64,000 nucleotides of DNA. Source: Gemmatimonadales bacterium (GTDB taxonomy: Bacteria; Gemmatimonadota; Gemmatimonadetes; Gemmatimonadales; GWC2-71-9). Positions 30,423 through 39,047 of the stretch are shown here, in pieces. Numbering within the stretch: position 1 is the first letter of the stretch; each line of letters begins with the position of its first letter. Where the stretch lies: contig DATAOI010000030.1 in NCBI GenBank assembly GCA_036265815.1, positions 1 through 64,000 of the forward strand, written 5' to 3'. The translations under genes and the position numbers were made by a program. The notes beneath the pieces are model-generated. The model did no database searches. It was not told where the DNA came from and saw nothing but the letters and a program-made list of their open reading frames with translations.

Positions 30423-31702
30423 ATGGGTGCATCATCGAGAGGGAGGACCCGGCACCTGGCGGGGTCCTCCCTCGTGCTTCTGGGCGCGGCACTGCTCCGG
30501 CCGCACTCGCTCGGCGCGCAGTCCGGTGCGCAGTCCGGCGTGTGGGCAGGTATCGGGGCGCAGGCAGTCGCCGCCTGGGAGTGGGCCGACCCGGTGCCGG
30601 GCGGAGGCTCGGTGGGTGAGATCCGGCTGGTGCAGCCGGCGGTCCACCTGCACGCAGGTGCGCTCAACCGCTTTCGGCTCCTGGCGATGGTCAATCTCGA
30701 AGGGTTGACGATACCGAACGGCGAGCTCGCCCCGGGCGACTGGGGCGAAGGGTTCGTCGACCGCCGGCATCCCCACACCTACGTCCACGAGGTGATCCTC
30801 GCGGCCGATGACCTGCTCGGCCGGATGGATGGTGATGTTCGGGCGTCGGTCAGTCTGGGCAAGGGATTCGCGCCCTTCGGCACCGATGATCCGATGGTCC
30901 GGCCGTTCGTCCGCTATCCGGTGAACCACCACCTTTCGCAGATACTCGAGCGCGCGGTGGCGATCGCGGGGGTACGGACCCGCACGGTGGCGGGCGAGCT
31001 GGGCCTGTTCAACGGCGACGAGCCGGAACGACCGGGGCAATGGCCACGGGTGGGTCACCGGTTCGGGGACTCCTGGTCGGCGCGGCTCACGTTCTTCCCT
31101 CTCGAGCGCCTGGAGGTGCAGGGCTCTCACGCGCAGGTGCATTCGCCCGAGCACCGGCCGGGATCCGTGCCGACCAGTCCAAGTGGAGTCTGTCTGCCCG
31201 GTGGTTCGGTCCGGTGAGCGGACGGCCGCTCTACGCGATGGTGGAATGGGCGCGCACCTCCGAAGCGGGCGGCTTCTTCGTCTTCCACTCTTTGCTGGCC
31301 GAAGGTGCATGGACGTTGGGGCGCCATCGTCTCCAGTACCGAGTCGAACGCAGCGAGCGTCCGGAGGAGGAGCGGGTCTCCGCCTTTCGGACGCTCCGCC
31401 CGCAGATCGAGAACGCCGTGCTCGGAATCACCCGCTGGACCGTACAGACGCTGGGCTATGAGGTCACCGCGCTCCGAACTCGCGAGGTGGGCGTGCGGCC
31501 GCTGGTGGAACTCTCGTACGGCAGGATCGCCAAGGTGGGTGGCGGCCTCTTCGACGTCCGCGGCTTGTATGGTCAGAGTACGTGCTGGTCGCTGACCCTG
31601 GGCGTGCGGCTGGGCCAGCCGCCGCACCGCATGGGGCGCTACGGTGCGCTCGAGGAGTCGGGCGTGAGGGGGGAGCATGCGCCCGGCGGGCACGCCCAGT
31701 GA
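30423..31702 (+). pseudogene. Frameshifted outer-membrane beta-barrel-like protein
   Basis: Two overlapping reading frames together make one protein of about 425 residues. The first (from ATG 30423) has a signal peptide (hydrophobic GSSLVLLGAALL, cleavage near LGAQ) and about 230 residues of alternating strand-like sequence. At about 31150-31175 the sensible sequence switches to another frame (from ADQSKWSLSARW onward to a stop at 31702). One inserted base in the GGGATCC area would rejoin them. The first frame alone ends at 31217 in an atypical tail. The pattern suggests a porin-like barrel of unknown substrate. It may be a true pseudogene or a sequencing error. Confidence 0.6.
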
Positions 31703-32877
31703 TGATGGGTTTCCCGATCGCACGGCGAGGAAGCGTGGCAGCGGCCCTGCTGGGCATTCTCGCCTGCGGGGGCGGGAATGATGGCGGCCTCGACCAGAAC
31801 GGCAGCGCGCTCCAGGTTCGGGATGGCGGCGACAACGTACCCGACCGGTACACCTCAGATCTCTGGGTCCATGGGGCGTACGCCTACACCGGCACCTGGG
31901 GCGCCCCTCCCGATCAGCAGCCCGGGGACGTGATCAAGATCTGGTCTCTCGATGCCTCCGGCGCGCCGACCCTGGCAGACTCGCTCAAGATCCCGTCGAT
32001 CCGCACGGTCAGCGACGTGCAAGTGAGCGCTGATGGCGCGCTGCTGGTGTTCAGCACCGAGCGGGGCGCCAACGCCGGCTTGTACGTGTACGGGCTGGCG
32101 GACCCCCTGCAGCCGGTGCTCCAAGACAGCGCGCTGGTGGCCGAAGGGATCCACACGGCTACGGTGGCCGATATCGCGGGCGGACGCTACGTCTTCGCCG
32201 CCAAGAACCCCAAGAACCCCGCGCTGCTGATCTACGATATCAGTACGCCGGCGGCCATCAGTCTCGCGGCCTCGGTGCCGATCCCTCCGCTCTACGGGAT
32301 TCACGACACCTACGTGCGTGACGGCCTCGCCTTCGTGTTCGCCTGGAACAGCGGGGTCATCATCTACGACGTGGGCAACGGCATGCTCGGCGGGTCGCCG
32401 CGGCAGCCGAAGGAGGTGAGCCGCGTCGTCCCTGACGACGACGGCGTCGCTGGCGGAGTGGCGACACACAACGGGTGGTGGTTCCACAACCCGGTGAGCG
32501 GAGAGAACCGATATCTCTTCGTCGGACAGGAGGGCGCGCAAGTGCTTGGTGCGAAGTCGAGCGGAGATATCCACGTGATCGATGTCCAGGATCTGTTCCA
32601 TCCCAGGGAGGTGGCCTTCTTCCATCTGGACGGGGCCGGCACTCACAATTTCTGGATGGACGAGCAGCGCCAGATCCTCTACGCGGCGTACTACAACGCC
32701 GGCGTCGTGGCACTCGATGTGTCCGGCCTCCTGGCCGGGGATCTGGCCGGCCGACTGATCGGCCGGGTCGAGCCAGGCGGCCCGGGAGATACGTACACCT
32801 GGGGCGTGCAGCTCCAGGGACACTCGCTCTACGCCAGCGACATGCTGAGCGGTCTCTGGCAGCTTCAGGCGCCGTAG
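31702..32877 (+). CDS. LVIVD-repeat lipoprotein of unknown function
   Basis: This 391-residue protein has a lipoprotein signal (GILAC followed by Gly-Gly-Gly-Asn) near residue 21. Repeated beta-propeller-like blades follow, with motifs such as LYVYGLADP, LLIYDISTP, HVIDVQDLFHP and VVALDVSGL that match LVIVD repeats. It is likely an outer-membrane-anchored or surface propeller; binding partner and substrate are unknown. The ATG overlaps the stop of the barrel gene, so the two are coupled. A later ATG at 31705 is equivalent. There is no enzymatic motif. Confidence 0.75.
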   Translation: MMGFPIARRGSVAAALLGILACGGGNDGGLDQNGSALQVRDGGDNVPDRYTSDLWVHGAYAYTGTWGAPPDQQPGDVIKIWSLDASGAPTLADSLKIPSIRTVSDVQVSADGALLVFSTERGANAGLYVYGLADPLQPVLQDSALVAEGIHTATVADIAGGRYVFAAKNPKNPALLIYDISTPAAISLAASVPIPPLYGIHDTYVRDGLAFVFAWNSGVIIYDVGNGMLGGSPRQPKEVSRVVPDDDGVAGGVATHNGWWFHNPVSGENRYLFVGQEGAQVLGAKSSGDIHVIDVQDLFHPREVAFFHLDGAGTHNFWMDEQRQILYAAYYNAGVVALDVSGLLAGDLAGRLIGRVEPGGPGDTYTWGVQLQGHSLYASDMLSGLWQLQAP

Positions 32878-32884
32878 CTCAGGT

Positions 32885-34852
32885 CTACCGGCCGGCCGGC
32901 TGCTTGGCGGTTGCCGCCCACCTGTTGTTCCCCCGTTCTACGTCCGGATACCAGCTGTCCGGGTCGATCACGACACTGGTGACGCTTCGGGAACCGGGGA
33001 CAAGGAGCGCATACCGGTCCCCCGCATACCATACCTCTACCGGTAGGGAGACGCGCCGAATGGTGCCGTCATCCAAGGTGAGTGCCAGCTCGACCGGCAT
33101 CGGCATGCTGCCGGCGTTGCGCAGGTACACGCGGGAGAAGCCGCCGGCGGAGTCGGAGCGGGCCACCGAGTCGACCGCCTGGTCGAGCTGGTCGGTGGTG
33201 TAGAACCAGGAGCGCCAGAACCAGCTCAGGTCCTCTCCCAGGCCGTCCTCCATGGTGCGAAAGAAGTCTGCCGGCGTGGGGTGCTTGTAAGCCCAGCGAC
33301 GGATGTACTCCTGGAACACGGGGTCGAATCGCTCGGGTGAGGTGATGTGCTCCCGCAGGAGCACCAGCCCGACGGCCGGCTTGTTGTAGAGACCCTGGCG
33401 CCAGTTCTCGGTGGTCCGCATGCGGTCGGCCGGCGTCATGATCGGCTGCTCGTTCCCCGACTTGGCATTCTTGATATAGGTCTCGGGCACACCGCGCGCG
33501 GTGGGAAGCGGCGTGTTGGGGAACTGCATGGGGAAGTTGTAGTGGTTGATGAAACTGTTGAACCCTTCGTCCATCCAGCCATAGAGCCGCTCGTTGCTTC
33601 CCACGACCATGGGGAACCAGGTATGCCCGAATTCGTGGTCGGTCACGCTGTACAACGCCACCGGGTCGGTGCGATTGTGGCAGAAGACGATCATCGGGTA
33701 CTCCATCCCGCCTTCGATCCCGTTGACGTTGCTGGCCACCGGGTAGGGGAACCTGAGCCACTTCTCGGAATAGTGCTCGATCGCCGCCTTGGCATACGCC
33801 GTGGCGTGGCTCCAGATCGAGTCGGCCGAGGGAGGGTAGAAGCTCATCGCCAGCGTTTTCCCGCCGTTTACCCCGACCGCGTCCCAGATGAAGTGCCGAG
33901 CCGCCGCCCAGGCGAAATCGCGGACGCTGTCGGCCGTGAAATGCCAGGTGAGCGTGCCGCGGGTAGTCGGCGGGCGGGATGACGCGTCGCCGATCTCGTC
34001 CTTGCCGCGGATGACCACCGTTTCGCTGGAGGTACGCGCGCGGGCGAGACGGGCGCGTTGCGCCGCGGTGAGCACCTCATCCGGATTCTGCAGCACACCG
34101 GTAGCGGCGACCAGCATGTCGGTCGGCACCGTGAGACTCACGTCGAAGCTGCCGTACTCCAGGTAGAACTCACCCTGGCCCAGGTACTGCTCGGTGTTCC
34201 AGCCCCGGACGTCGTCGTACACGGCCAGCCGGGGATACCATTGCGCCACCTCGTACACCGTGCTCCCGTCGATCTCCTCCGTGCCCATCCGGTTGCCGTT
34301 GGGTCCGAAGGGAAACGACCAGGCAAGCTCCAGCGCCTGCTTGCCACCGGGGGGGAGCGGCCGGGCGAGGTCGATCCTCATCATCGTCCCGTTCACCGTG
34401 TATTGCAGCGGCGTGGCCGGCCGGCCCGGCTTCCCCTTGACGGGAGGCGCTGCCGGCTCGGCCACCCGGGTCAAGGTGACACTGACCTGCGCGCCTTTGG
34501 ATCCGAACCTCGGATCCTGTCCGAACACGAAGAAGCCGCGGCTGTGATCGTTGAAGAGATTCTGGTCCAGCTGGAGCCAGACGTATCGCAGCGTGTCGGG
34601 CGAGTTGTTGCCGTAGGTGATCCGCTCCTCGCCGCTCACCGATTTGCCGGCCGTATCGAGACTGGCCTTGATCACGTAGGTGAGCCGCTGCTGCCAGTAC
34701 CCCGGGCCGGGGGCACCGCTCCCGGTCCGGACCGCAGTCGGGGTGGGAAGCTGAAGCCGGTCGAAGGGCGAGGCCGCGGGTGAGGGGGATCGCTGGGCGA
34801 GCAGCGGCGTGGCCCCGAGACAAAGCAGGAGCAAGGGAAAGCGGACGGACAT
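32885..34852 (-). CDS. M1 family metallopeptidase (exported)
   Basis: This 655-residue protein has a clear signal peptide (MSVRFPLLLLCLGATPLLAQ). The N-terminal M1 sandwich domain is followed by GGMEYP, the exopeptidase motif equivalent to GAMEN, then the zinc site HEFGHTWFP (about residue 405) and the third ligand Glu in MDEGFNSF. The catalytic Glu is present, so it should be active in the periplasm or outside, trimming peptides. ATG at 34852 is chosen for the signal peptide. It is a paralogue of the gene at 36386-38425 and converges on the LVIVD gene with a 7-base gap. Confidence 0.88.
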   Translation of the reverse strand: MSVRFPLLLLCLGATPLLAQRSPSPAASPFDRLQLPTPTAVRTGSGAPGPGYWQQRLTYVIKASLDTAGKSVSGEERITYGNNSPDTLRYVWLQLDQNLFNDHSRGFFVFGQDPRFGSKGAQVSVTLTRVAEPAAPPVKGKPGRPATPLQYTVNGTMMRIDLARPLPPGGKQALELAWSFPFGPNGNRMGTEEIDGSTVYEVAQWYPRLAVYDDVRGWNTEQYLGQGEFYLEYGSFDVSLTVPTDMLVAATGVLQNPDEVLTAAQRARLARARTSSETVVIRGKDEIGDASSRPPTTRGTLTWHFTADSVRDFAWAAARHFIWDAVGVNGGKTLAMSFYPPSADSIWSHATAYAKAAIEHYSEKWLRFPYPVASNVNGIEGGMEYPMIVFCHNRTDPVALYSVTDHEFGHTWFPMVVGSNERLYGWMDEGFNSFINHYNFPMQFPNTPLPTARGVPETYIKNAKSGNEQPIMTPADRMRTTENWRQGLYNKPAVGLVLLREHITSPERFDPVFQEYIRRWAYKHPTPADFFRTMEDGLGEDLSWFWRSWFYTTDQLDQAVDSVARSDSAGGFSRVYLRNAGSMPMPVELALTLDDGTIRRVSLPVEVWYAGDRYALLVPGSRSVTSVVIDPDSWYPDVERGNNRWAATAKQPAGR

Positions 34853-34893: not shown

Positions 34894-36426
34894 CTACCGG
34901 GCCAGCGCCCGGTTGCTGTACTCCCGCTCGCCGGTCACTTCGCGGACCACATACGGCTCCAGCCACTCGGGCAAGGGCAAAGCGGGCTCCTCACCAGCAA
35001 GCTGAACCTGAGCCAGCACCAGATCGCGATCGAGGAACTGCTCGATGCCCCAGGTCAGGCCGTAGTCGGGCACCTCGTGCCGTCGCTTGACCACCCGTCG
35101 CCCCTGGGTGAGCGGCCAGACGTCTTCGAAAAGACCACGCGCAGTGGCTTCCTCCACCTCGTCACCGCTCGGACCGGTGCCGGGCTTGACCGTCCGGTAG
35201 CGCACTTCCAGACGATCATCACGCCAGCGCCGCATCCGTTCCACCAGCCGTGTGCCGGGGAGCCAGCCCTGCTCGATCTCTATGGTCGGCATCTGGCGCG
35301 CCGTGGTGGGCACCTGGCGCAGCACGAACTTCCGCTCGATCTCCGCGACGCAGGAGGGACGGTGGGCGATCCGCTTGCCCAGCGCGGTGACTTCCTCGAA
35401 GAAGGACCCCGCGGCGCCGTCGAGCCACTCGGCCTCGAGCCGAGCGAAGGCGCGCTCCTCGCGCGCTCTCAGGCGGCGGATGAGTGTCAGCAGCCCGGGA
35501 CGCGGGTCCTCGCCCGCGTCATCGGCAATGCCGTCACCTTTGGCTGCCATGCGCACCGCCCGCGACAGCCGCCGCGCGTGCTCCTCTCCCGCGCCCAGCA
35601 GCGCCGCCGCGAGGTCGGCCTGGAGCGTCTGGCTGTCGTGCAGCTCGCCCAGGTGATCCTGCAGGGTTCGAAGCCGCTCGATCAGCGGCTCGACCCCGTG
35701 CACTTCATCCCGGATCGGCTCCAGCAGATAGCGCAGCCGCTTGGCCGCCAGCCGGGCCCGATGGGACTGCCGCTCGTCCTCGATCGATCCGATCTCCGCC
35801 AGCCGCCACTCCAGGTCGCCGCCGAACTTCCGGATCCGACTGCCCAGCACCGCCGCAGCCTCGTGCCGCCGCCGCGCGGGATCGCGCTCGATCCGCATCC
35901 GGTACACCTCGAGCCGGCGCCGCAGCCGGGGCTCCAGCTTCCTGAACCGGGTGTCCACATTCCGGAAGACGGCTCGATCGGCCCGGCGCCGGCGCGCCTC
36001 GAGGCGCCCGAGGTGCCAGCGCAGCCCGGCGCGCTGGCGCGCAGTCAGATCGCCTTCCTGTTGGCGGTCCCAGGTCAGGTGCACCTCGAGATCCCGGCTC
36101 CTCGTGGTGACCCGCGCCAGCCGGCGCAACTGCCGGCGAATGCGCGACGACACGCTGCCGTCGATCTCCGGCCGATAGGCCTGGAGACAGGCCACCAGGC
36201 GCCGCATGGCAACCCGGAAATCGTGGAGCGCCTGGGGGTCGGAGGGGTCCGCCAGGCGGCCGGCGGCGATGGCGGCACGATCGAGAAGCGACAGCGCGAT
36301 GAGCCGCGCCGCCTCCTCCGCGGGCAAGTCGAGCAGGTACTCGGGGAGCGGCACGCGACGATCCTCAGGGGTGACCTCGATCAAGTCACGGGGTCGAGGT
36401 GGCCGGCGCAGAGCTCCAGCCGTCAT
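34894..36426 (-). CDS. CHAD-CYTH domain protein
   Basis: This protein of about 510 residues has an N-terminal CHAD domain (about 20-330: PEYLLDLPAEEAARL, the HDFRVAMRR motif and RLAAKRLRYLLE) rich in Arg/His that bind polyphosphate. A C-terminal CYTH domain (about 355-505) starts with the ExExK metal motif EIERKF. The usual bacterial order is CYTH then CHAD, so this is the reverse. The family includes inorganic triphosphatases and polyphosphate-granule proteins. The start is uncertain: ATG 36456, ATG 36426 and TTG 36384 are in frame, none with a ribosome site; the first two overlap the upstream peptidase gene. Confidence 0.82.
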   Translation of the reverse strand: MTAGALRRPPRPRDLIEVTPEDRRVPLPEYLLDLPAEEAARLIALSLLDRAAIAAGRLADPSDPQALHDFRVAMRRLVACLQAYRPEIDGSVSSRIRRQLRRLARVTTRSRDLEVHLTWDRQQEGDLTARQRAGLRWHLGRLEARRRRADRAVFRNVDTRFRKLEPRLRRRLEVYRMRIERDPARRRHEAAAVLGSRIRKFGGDLEWRLAEIGSIEDERQSHRARLAAKRLRYLLEPIRDEVHGVEPLIERLRTLQDHLGELHDSQTLQADLAAALLGAGEEHARRLSRAVRMAAKGDGIADDAGEDPRPGLLTLIRRLRAREERAFARLEAEWLDGAAGSFFEEVTALGKRIAHRPSCVAEIERKFVLRQVPTTARQMPTIEIEQGWLPGTRLVERMRRWRDDRLEVRYRTVKPGTGPSGDEVEEATARGLFEDVWPLTQGRRVVKRRHEVPDYGLTWGIEQFLDRDLVLAQVQLAGEEPALPLPEWLEPYVVREVTGEREYSNRALAR

Positions 36427-38425
36427 TGGCCGGAACGACATCCGGAAAGGCGCCATCGGGGTTGACTCGGGCAGTCACAATCTGCTTTCCGGGATTGTAC
36501 CTGTACAGATAGCGGTTGCCTCCGTACCAGATCTCTACCGGCAGCTTGACCAGACTATCGGTGCCGTCCGCGTATCCGATCCGCAGCTCGACCGGCATGA
36601 CGGCGGAGCCGAGGCTCCGGATCACCACTTCGGCGCCGCTGTCCGGCGCCTGATGCACCGTCTCGACCGACTGGTCCAGCGCCGCTGTAGTAAAGAAGAA
36701 CCCGCGCCAGAACCAGGAGAGATCCCGGCCGGAGACCTGGTCGATGGTGCGGAAGAAATCGGCGGGCTGCGGGTGCTTGAGAGCCCAGCGCCGGGTGTAC
36801 TCCCGAAAGGCGGTGTCGAACACCTCCGGCCCCAGCACCTTGTTCCGGAGCGCCAGCAGCATGATGGAGGGCTTCACGTACGCCAGGCTGCCGAGATTCT
36901 GATCGTTGCGGTAGCGGTTGGCGGGCGTCATGATCGGCTGGGCGGTCGGGGTCTGGTCCAGCGTGGTCACGAACCGGGCTTCGCCCCGGCGGATCTGGGT
37001 GTCATCCCGCTTCCAGTAGTCCTCTTCCGAGAAGGTGTTCATGAAGGTGTTGAAACCCTCGTCCATCCAGGCGTACCGCCGCTCGTCGGAGCCCACCATC
37101 ATGGGGAACCACATGTGGCCGATCTCGTGGGTGATGACGTTGTAGAGGTCGGGGCCGTCGTCGCCCTTTGCCTCCATCGCCATCATGGGGTACTCCATGC
37201 CGCTCACCGGCCCCTCGACCGCGGATATCTGGGGATAGAGGTAGCGGAACCAGCGGGTGCTGTATTCCAGGATGGAGTACCGGCTCATCTTCGCGGCATC
37301 CTTCCAGGTGTCCACGGCGGAGGGCCGATAGTACGCCTGAGCGAGGACGCCGTCCCAGCCGGACGCATCCCAGAGGAACTCGGGTGAGGCCGCCCAGGCC
37401 ACATCGCGCACGTGCTCGGCCCGGAAGCGCCAGGTCTGGGTGCCGTCAGTGCGAGGACGGGCGGCGCCCGAGCTCAACTCCTCCGCGGTCACGATGGCGA
37501 TGGTGCTGTCCGACTTGACGGCGCTCGCCAGGCGTCCGCGCTCGGCTGCGGTGAGCACCTCGGTGGGGTTCTGCAGGGTGCCGCTCCCCGCCACGATGTA
37601 GCCTGCGGGGACGGTGACGTCGTAATCGATGTCGCCGTACTCGAGATAGAACTCACCCTGGCCCAAGTAGGGATCGGTGTTCCAGCCGTGCACATCGTCG
37701 TACACCGCCATCCTCGGGTACCACTGGGCAATCTCGTACAGGCTGCCATCCCGACCCATCCGGTCGGCCCCGTGCTCCGGAATGTTGAAGCCGTAAACCA
37801 GATCCAGCACCGTGCTGCCGCCGGGAGCGATTGGCGTGGCCAGCTCGAGGTACATCATGGTATCGTCGACCCGCCATTTGAGCGGGACGCTGTGCGGGTC
37901 CGCCGGGGAGGGGGAGGCGGTCCGCCGCCGGCCCGATCGGGCCGGAGCCGGTTTGACCGGCAGCGAGCTCTGGGTGATGCTCTCGATCTCGAACCCACCC
38001 TGGAATCCTGCTCCGCCGAACCGGCTTTCCTGCTCGAACAGGAGCGAGCCCACGCTCCCCGGCCGGAACAGGTTCTGGTCCACCTGCATCCAGACGAAGC
38101 GGAGCGTGTCGGGGGAGTGATTGGTATAGCGCACCTGCTCGGTGCCGGAGACCCGCTTGGCGGCGGTGTCGAGCACCACCTTCAGCGTGTAATCCACCGT
38201 CTGCTGCCAGTACTGAGGTCCCGGGGAGCCGTCTGGATTGCGCGTGTCGGTGGGCTCGGGGAGCGGCAACGGGCTGAAGATGCCGGTGTCCGCCACCGGT
38301 GGCTTGAGCGCCGGCACCAGGGTGACCGGCCTCGACGGCTGGGTTGGCGCGGGTGCGCCGCCACCGGGTTGCTGGGCGGCCAGCCGCGGGGCCAGGAACA
38401 GGGTCACCAACAGGGGGATTCGCAT
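36386..38425 (-). CDS. M1 family metallopeptidase (exported), second paralogue
   Basis: This 679-residue protein starts MRIPLLVTLFLAPRLAAQ, a signal peptide, with an AGGA site five bases before the ATG; an upstream in-frame ATG (38443) lacks one. It carries GMEYPMM, the zinc site HEIGHMWFP (about residue 432) and the third ligand in MDEGFNTF, so all M1 catalytic residues are present. Its Pro-rich linker and an Arg-rich insert (RSGRRRT near 190) are absent from the other paralogue. The two share FFRT, RRWA-KHP and DLSWFWR motifs near the C-terminus. The stop overlaps the CHAD-CYTH gene start. Confidence 0.88.
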   Translation of the reverse strand: MRIPLLVTLFLAPRLAAQQPGGGAPAPTQPSRPVTLVPALKPPVADTGIFSPLPLPEPTDTRNPDGSPGPQYWQQTVDYTLKVVLDTAAKRVSGTEQVRYTNHSPDTLRFVWMQVDQNLFRPGSVGSLLFEQESRFGGAGFQGGFEIESITQSSLPVKPAPARSGRRRTASPSPADPHSVPLKWRVDDTMMYLELATPIAPGGSTVLDLVYGFNIPEHGADRMGRDGSLYEIAQWYPRMAVYDDVHGWNTDPYLGQGEFYLEYGDIDYDVTVPAGYIVAGSGTLQNPTEVLTAAERGRLASAVKSDSTIAIVTAEELSSGAARPRTDGTQTWRFRAEHVRDVAWAASPEFLWDASGWDGVLAQAYYRPSAVDTWKDAAKMSRYSILEYSTRWFRYLYPQISAVEGPVSGMEYPMMAMEAKGDDGPDLYNVITHEIGHMWFPMMVGSDERRYAWMDEGFNTFMNTFSEEDYWKRDDTQIRRGEARFVTTLDQTPTAQPIMTPANRYRNDQNLGSLAYVKPSIMLLALRNKVLGPEVFDTAFREYTRRWALKHPQPADFFRTIDQVSGRDLSWFWRGFFFTTAALDQSVETVHQAPDSGAEVVIRSLGSAVMPVELRIGYADGTDSLVKLPVEIWYGGNRYLYRYNPGKQIVTARVNPDGAFPDVVPANDGWSSAPATSTP

Positions 38426-38468
38426 TCTGGTCCTGAAGGGCATGAGGGCAGCGGCGGGCGGGCTCGGG

Positions 38469-39047
38469 TTAGAGTTTCGGCAGGGTGACGCCCAGCTGCC
38501 GCTGGTACTTGCCGGCCTTGTCGGCGTAGCTGGTCTCGCACACATCGTCCACATCGGCCTCGAAGAAGAGCACCTGGCAGATGCCCTCGTTGGCGTAGAT
38601 CCGGGCGGGAAGGGGGGTAGTGTTGGAGATCTCCAGCGTGACATGCCCTTCCCACTCGGGCTCGAAGGGGGTCACGTTGGTGATGATCCCGCAGCGGGCG
38701 TAGGTGCTCTTGCCCACGCAAATGGTGAGCGCCTCCCGGGGGATGCGGAAGTACTCCACCGAGCGCGCCAGGGCAAAGCTGTTGGGAGGCACGATGCAAA
38801 TGTCCCCTTCGAACTCCACGAAGCTCTTGGAGTCGAAGTCCTTCGGGTCGACCACGGCGCTGAGGACGTTGGTGAAGATCTTGAACTCCGGCGCCACCCG
38901 CATGTCGTAGCCGTAGCTGGACAGGCCATAGGAGATGACCCGCCGGCCCCGCCCGTCGACCTGGCGGACCTGGCTGTCCACGAATGGGTCGATCATGCCG
39001 CGCTCCAGCGCCATGCGTCGGATCCACCGGTCGGACTTGATGGACAT
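38469..39047 (-). CDS. dcd: dCTP deaminase
   Basis: This 192-residue enzyme converts dCTP to dUTP for thymidylate synthesis. The trimeric dUTPase-fold signatures [13 protein letters not shown], the [16 protein letters not shown] block, the active-site GKSTYARCG and the catalytic Glu in TPFEPEWEG are present. ATG at 39047, with a GAGG site just upstream, gives the family length. A bifunctional dCTP deaminase/dUTPase would be of similar size, and this cannot be ruled out. It is divergent from the nuo operon. Confidence 0.95.

Follow-up and report, generated by a model that had tools for sequence, protein, structure and literature searches.

The locus examined here raises the question of what a protein combining a CHAD and a CYTH domain does between two M1 metallopeptidases that look exported, and of how its gene came to be placed there. 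In the available sections of the literature that we cite, CYTH-CHAD proteins of bacteria figure as phosphohydrolases, and the preliminary description of this locus likewise considered a polyphosphate-related enzyme plausible. We analyzed the gene within its window, that is, the whole stretch of 64,000 nucleotides from a Gemmatimonadales genome (G000 in our set), and compared it with homologous genes and loci of the same genus, family, order and phylum in Gemmatimonadota.

The CHAD-CYTH open frame spans positions 34894-36456 on the minus strand, running from an ATG at 36456 to a stop at 34894 (520 aa). Many homologues of the encoded protein (query P0002) align with it only from about residue 35 of this 520-aa frame, and the ortholog in G040, a genome of the same genus, has as its start a GTG to which GTG 36354 is the aligned counterpart in the window; the G040 GTG is located well past the stop of that genome's own M1 gene. 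On these grounds we prefer GTG 36354, which is preceded by GAGG 8 bases upstream and follows the stop of the upstream peptidase gene (36386) after a gap of 31 bp, as the start of a 486-aa protein (34894..36354, minus strand). The gene thus probably does not overlap its upstream neighbour; the overlap reported in the preliminary description arose from a start at ATG 36426, which falls within the peptidase gene, and is not sustained by the start of the ortholog. Its placement between two M1 metallopeptidase genes was confirmed by PF01433 matches and by HExxH motifs, identified by eye, on both sides and on the same strand: M1a lies upstream (36386..38443, minus; E 5.8e-17) and M1b downstream (32885..34852, minus; E 4e-12). 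Together with a dCTP deaminase-like gene (dcd) upstream of M1a (38469..39047, minus; PF22769 E 6.4e-35), these genes form a run, dcd - M1a - CHAD-CYTH - M1b, whose members share the minus strand and are spaced by 25, 31 and 41 bp if GTG 36354 is taken as the start. By eye, the N-termini of M1a and M1b are signal-like and the CHAD-CYTH protein does not look exported. A plus-strand frame (31582-32877) faces M1b, the two ends lying 7 bp apart, and encodes a protein with at most a weak match to LVIVD repeats (E 0.73).

That CHAD is N-terminal and CYTH C-terminal in a single protein was upheld by a PF05235 match followed by a match to CYTH structures. The CHAD domain, a polyphosphate-binding module (35617..36258, minus; residues 67-280), is detected at E 3.1e-27 with a score of 96.5 bits against a curated cut-off of 25.6. 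Its AlphaFold model consists of helices with pLDDT of roughly 75-85 over most of the domain, and the top Foldseek match of the model is 6qva, a CHAD structure with polyphosphate (E 6.1e-5). According to the available sections of PMC6537752, mutation of H253, R256, R260, R296, R418 or Y419 weakens polyphosphate binding in CtCHAD. When matched by motif and spacing in a sequence alignment, the window equivalents are H78, R81, R85, R121, R242 and Y243 (520-aa numbering), all of which are kept and identical in G040. The retention of these six contacts and the presence in the window's genome of two PPK1 and two PPK2 matches support the proposed link to polyphosphate.

The CYTH, or triphosphate-tunnel-like, domain (34900..35352, minus) has eroded metal sites and was recognized by phmmer, by a family profile and by phrog_6660 (E 1e-13). 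In phmmer searches, residues 369-519 match the NeuTTM structures 3typ (E 5e-9) and 2fbl (E 1.2e-8), these being the only PDB sequence relatives of the window CYTH at E below 1e-5; a profile built from nine members of the family retrieves both structures at about 1e-20 (family profile E 5e-21). The Pfam CYTH model PF01928 had no match in the genome, in the window protein, in its CYTH part or in an intact CHAD-CYTH paralogue from the same genome (C92; L034:7023-8489, minus; L001:772-2238). Since the intact paralogue is also missed, this is a limit of the Pfam model and not of the window copy alone, and the CYTH assignment therefore depends on homology to solved CYTH structures. Plasmid proteins resembling the C-terminal third of the paralogue bear the NCBI name 'CYTH domain-containing protein'. 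In the AlphaFold (AF2) model the CYTH part has a pLDDT near 30, obtained from an alignment of two rows only.

Of 102 genomes from the family, 45 gave matches to P0002, and matches to alignment A1 were obtained in 149 of 288 genomes of the order and, at E 1e-40, in 81 of 395 genomes drawn from the phylum, with CHAD-only and CYTH-only matches included in all three counts. We inspected 58 loci from 57 genomes (L033-L050, L108-L147). Since CHAD-CYTH queries seeded this set and loci were picked for the length of their frames, the resulting counts describe domain order among fused proteins and not frequency. A fused frame is present in 57 of the 58 loci, L046 having no CYTH match, and CHAD comes first in 57/57 fused proteins. 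In the available sections of PMC10892726 and PMC6537752 the characterised YgiF-type order is CYTH first and CHAD second, and CHAD proteins are said usually to carry CYTH first (PMC10892726). The reversed order pointed out in the preliminary description hence stands relative to YgiF-type proteins, but for the fused proteins that we found in the phylum it is the norm. Among the nearest frames flanking the other copies are histidine phosphatases (5/49 upstream frames), polyphosphate kinase 1 (4/52 downstream) and Ppx/GppA (2/52), and for this reason the family suits polyphosphate metabolism. At one of the inspected loci (L045:7219-8755, G086) the CHAD-CYTH gene lies in two frames and is split near mid-CYTH.

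The paralogue C92 is 44% identical to the window protein overall and has an intact ExE motif; it adjoins a frame whose start, by eye, is that of an RHG-type histidine phosphatase (SixA-like). The hypothesis that the window copy is the sister of C92 was not supported: the window protein pairs with that of G040 at 100/100, and the placement of this pair is poorly resolved. Among related CHAD proteins, 14, of which two come from the window's genus, have no detectable CYTH, and four switches are needed to account for its presence or absence on the CHAD tree, in which row L050 has a very long branch and an unsure placement; it follows that CYTH is dispensable here, while CHAD is kept. Within the genus, the CHAD proteins that have no detectable CYTH are those at L025/L104 (G042) and L103 (G048), and these cluster with L035, which is fused, rather than with the window.

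The active site of the CYTH domain was compared with that of 56 other fused proteins, a set that leaves out the window and G040, with residues numbered by their index in the 2FBL string. E3, E5, K7, R38, R40, K51, R58, E60, R81 and K84 are kept in 56/56 of these proteins, and R86, D100, E113 and E115 in all 55 that can be scored (L045 is truncated there); position 62 is Glu in 53/56 and Asp in 3/56, and position 98 is Glu in 51/56. The window CYTH carries five changes at these positions: R58G, E98G, D100E, E113Q and E115Q. Gly thus replaces an invariant Arg (35164..35166), WGIEQF stands where the family has W-E-I/V-D-x-F (35035..35052; Glu to Gly, Asp to Glu), and the ExE metal-binding motif formed by E113 and E115 reads QVQ (35002..35010), all on the minus strand. 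The G040 protein carries K7R, R58S, E60A, E62G, E98A and E115A, its ExE motif becoming EVA, in which the first Glu is kept and the second lost; a local frameshift was sought as the source of these losses, and none was found in the other reading frames. Intact in both proteins are E3, E5, R38, R40, K51, R81, K84 and R86. The ExExK motif, placed near residue 360 by the preliminary description, is present in the window as EIERK (35329..35343, minus; EIERR in G040), and the basic tunnel residues R38, R40, K51, R81, K84 and R86 are kept in the window, the seventh, R58, being lost.

According to the available sections of PMC8233210, metal 1 is bound by the first ExE Glu throughout the CYTH family, and metal 2 is bound in triphosphatases by the second; PMC4641920 reports that the corresponding Glu is needed for the activity of AtTTM3 and YgiF. 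Going by the motif, the ExE glutamates lost here would be equivalent to those tested in AtTTM3 and YgiF; the mutants of these residues named in the available sections are Asp and Ala, and Glu to Gln is not among them. We infer from these comparisons that the window protein has lost its CYTH activity. A degenerate ExExK motif or degenerate basic residues, which the preliminary description had named as grounds for refutation, were not observed in the window, where ExExK and six basic residues are intact; it is the replacement of ExE by QVQ that weakens the claim of a polyphosphate enzyme. With ExExK and the six basic tunnel residues intact, some residual or altered activity is conceivable.

Sequence divergence indicates that the gene is nonetheless constrained. 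The window and G040 orthologs are 64% identical, and each reads through 486 codons without interruption. The ratio dN/dS between them is 0.23 for CHAD, 0.30 for CYTH (bootstrap 0.16-0.44) and 0.17 for M1b, and the CYTH value implies that this domain is still under constraint. The CYTH/CHAD branch length ratio, computed from sums on a fixed tree, is 1.66 for the window and G040 pair, as against about 0.68 for the remaining proteins. The CYTH excess falls mostly on the G040 tip (L033:7298-8758), with a branch of 0.79 in CYTH vs 0.23 in CHAD, the former being longer than any other CYTH branch compared.

The association with M1 genes is young and labile. The order M1 / CHAD-CYTH / M1 was found in 2/10 genomes of the genus, the window and G040, and in the 58 inspected loci, several of which end close to the gene, an M1 homologue lies near CHAD-CYTH in G040 only. 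Searches with M1b (query P0003) located M1a and M1b adjacent and without an insert in three genomes of the genus (G046, G047 and G042) and in one of the family (G053); in G044, M1b directly follows the apparent end of dcd, without M1a. The arrangement is accordingly unlikely to be a general conserved module: the order recurs in one other genome, a congener, and the M1 pairs of G046, G047, G042 and G053 are uninterrupted. In G046 and G047, tblastn at E 1e-3 gave no CHAD-CYTH remnant in the gap that separates M1a from M1b, and neither genome has a P0002 match anywhere; G040 has no second P0002 match (genome 91% complete). In G046, the gap between M1a and M1b, in which there is no CHAD-CYTH gene, contains a long GC-rich inverted repeat seen by eye (L089:4975-5150).

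Phylogenies of the neighbouring and of two other genes give a mixed picture of how this distribution arose. In the M1b tree, G046, G047 and G040 form a group with the window outside it (97/95), and a clade of the window and G040 is rejected (p 0.025); this topology favours a single insertion before the four genomes split, followed by later loss. The nuoD tree places G000 with G040 at 81/82 and the sdhA tree places G000 outside G040, G044, G046 and G047 at 83/91, so that these two are weak and conflicting, and insertion followed by loss would be favoured by M1b only, with recombination at the locus as the alternative.

As judged from sequence comparison, the account that we consider probable is that a second CHAD-CYTH paralogue was inserted into the M1 pair and is now a polyphosphate binder with a non-hydrolysing CYTH domain. 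The paralogue would have entered the gap between the tandem exported M1 genes in one lineage of this Gemmatimonadota genus. Its CHAD groove would hold polyphosphate in the cytosol, and the CYTH tunnel, basic yet short of metal-binding acids, would hold a chain end at most, so that the window protein may tether, buffer or shield polyphosphate while the intact paralogue C92 of the same genome would perform hydrolysis. If the gene shares its expression with dcd and the two peptidase genes, this most likely stems from insertion into a run of genes that was already there and not from physical cooperation, which is disfavoured because the M1 proteins look exported and the CHAD-CYTH protein, by eye, does not. 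Cooperation with exported peptidases is not supported by our findings, and transcription shared as a result of insertion is the simpler reading. A bolder version would make the protein a pseudo-triphosphatase that retained its polyphosphate-binding module and the basic half of its tunnel, dropped the metal-binding half, senses or caps polyphosphate ends without cutting them, shields polyphosphate from the paralogue and from exopolyphosphatases and, being co-expressed with exported peptidases, links phosphate stores to extracellular protein scavenging; we regard this version as doubtful.

Beside a polyphosphate binder without hydrolysis there remain, in this order, decay, altered chemistry and full activity. 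A gene made superfluous by the intact paralogue, or simply unneeded, could be decaying, its CYTH eroding and the gene being lost in some lineages. Such decay, which we hold to be unlikely though it is the foremost of the alternatives, would suit the partly different residues lost in the window and in G040, the disparity between the G040 tip branches (0.79 in CYTH, 0.23 in CHAD) and the absence of the gene from G046 and G047, which the M1b tree unites with G040 but not with the window (97/95). It sits poorly with two frames open over 486 codons, with dN/dS well below 1 in both CHAD and CYTH and with the kept CHAD contacts, and redundancy is no explanation in G040, where no other P0002 match occurs in a genome that is 91% complete. 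As only two copies are known to be flanked by M1 genes, the choice between a maintained and a slowly decaying gene hangs on one pair.

The partly different losses of the two orthologues would not be expected of a new shared chemistry, and the replacement of both ExE Glu by Gln in the window also tells against an enzyme of altered chemistry, such as a one-metal or metal-poor phosphohydrolase or a pyrophosphatase-like enzyme after the manner of AtTTM2. The intact ExExK motif of the window, the RxR pair, K51, R81, K84 and R86 lend this proposal some weight, as does the precedent of AtTTM2, a TTM relative that acts on pyrophosphate without the ExExK and ExE signatures (PMC8233210, available sections); we nevertheless rate it improbable. 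A regular tripolyphosphatase in the manner of NeuTTM and YgiF, in line with the first proposal for this gene, appears very improbable, since the ExE motif is gone even though ExExK, most basic residues and homology to NeuTTM speak for it. A class IV adenylyl cyclase may be ruled out on motifs, and we give it next to no credence. The marks of that class in the available sections of PMC8233210 are HF before ExExK, a replaced central Arg and an Ala in place of the second ExE Glu. The second ExE Glu is indeed lost here, and is Ala in G040, but by eye there is no HF four residues ahead of ExExK, the central Arg is kept in both the window and G040, and the window has Gln instead of Ala.

The locus offers a metal-binding motif lost in the same paralogue of two species, with selection still acting and with an intact copy as a built-in control, and it makes the question of whether CYTH can be a binding domain directly testable. 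It also shows that the phylum holds a large set of CHAD-first proteins, the CYTH part of which is unseen by the Pfam CYTH model in the two members scanned; a published CYTH network that rests on PF01928 may have missed CHAD-first CHAD-CYTH proteins. In open-licence literature we found no paper on a CHAD domain in Gemmatimonadetes or Gemmatimonadota and, among the matches listed, no description of an ExE-less CHAD-CYTH paralogue or of the M1 setting.

Among known systems, the E. coli CYTH-CHAD tripolyphosphatase YgiF also combines both domains in one chain, and its CHAD binds polyphosphate (PMC6537752, available sections); it differs from the window protein in its opposite domain order, in the ExE motif that the window has lost and in that the window CHAD matches the CtCHAD and RcCHAD structures. 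CtCHAD (6qv7/6qva/3e0s) is the best match of the window CHAD in both sequence and fold, with six polyphosphate contacts kept, but as crystallised it has no fused C-terminal CYTH. The inorganic triphosphatase NeuTTM (2fbl/3typ) shares the ExExK, RxR, K and KxR residues, whereas it is a single-domain protein with an intact ExE. AtTTM1 and AtTTM2 are earlier examples of TTM-fold proteins that lack the ExExK and ExE signatures (PMC8233210, available sections), although they represent another fusion in another organism and the window protein keeps ExExK. The closest counterparts are the other CHAD-CYTH proteins of Gemmatimonadota, C92 of the same genome included, which have the same domain order and layout as the window protein and differ from it in retaining ExE in 55/55 scorable cases and in having M1 neighbours, among the inspected loci, only in G040.
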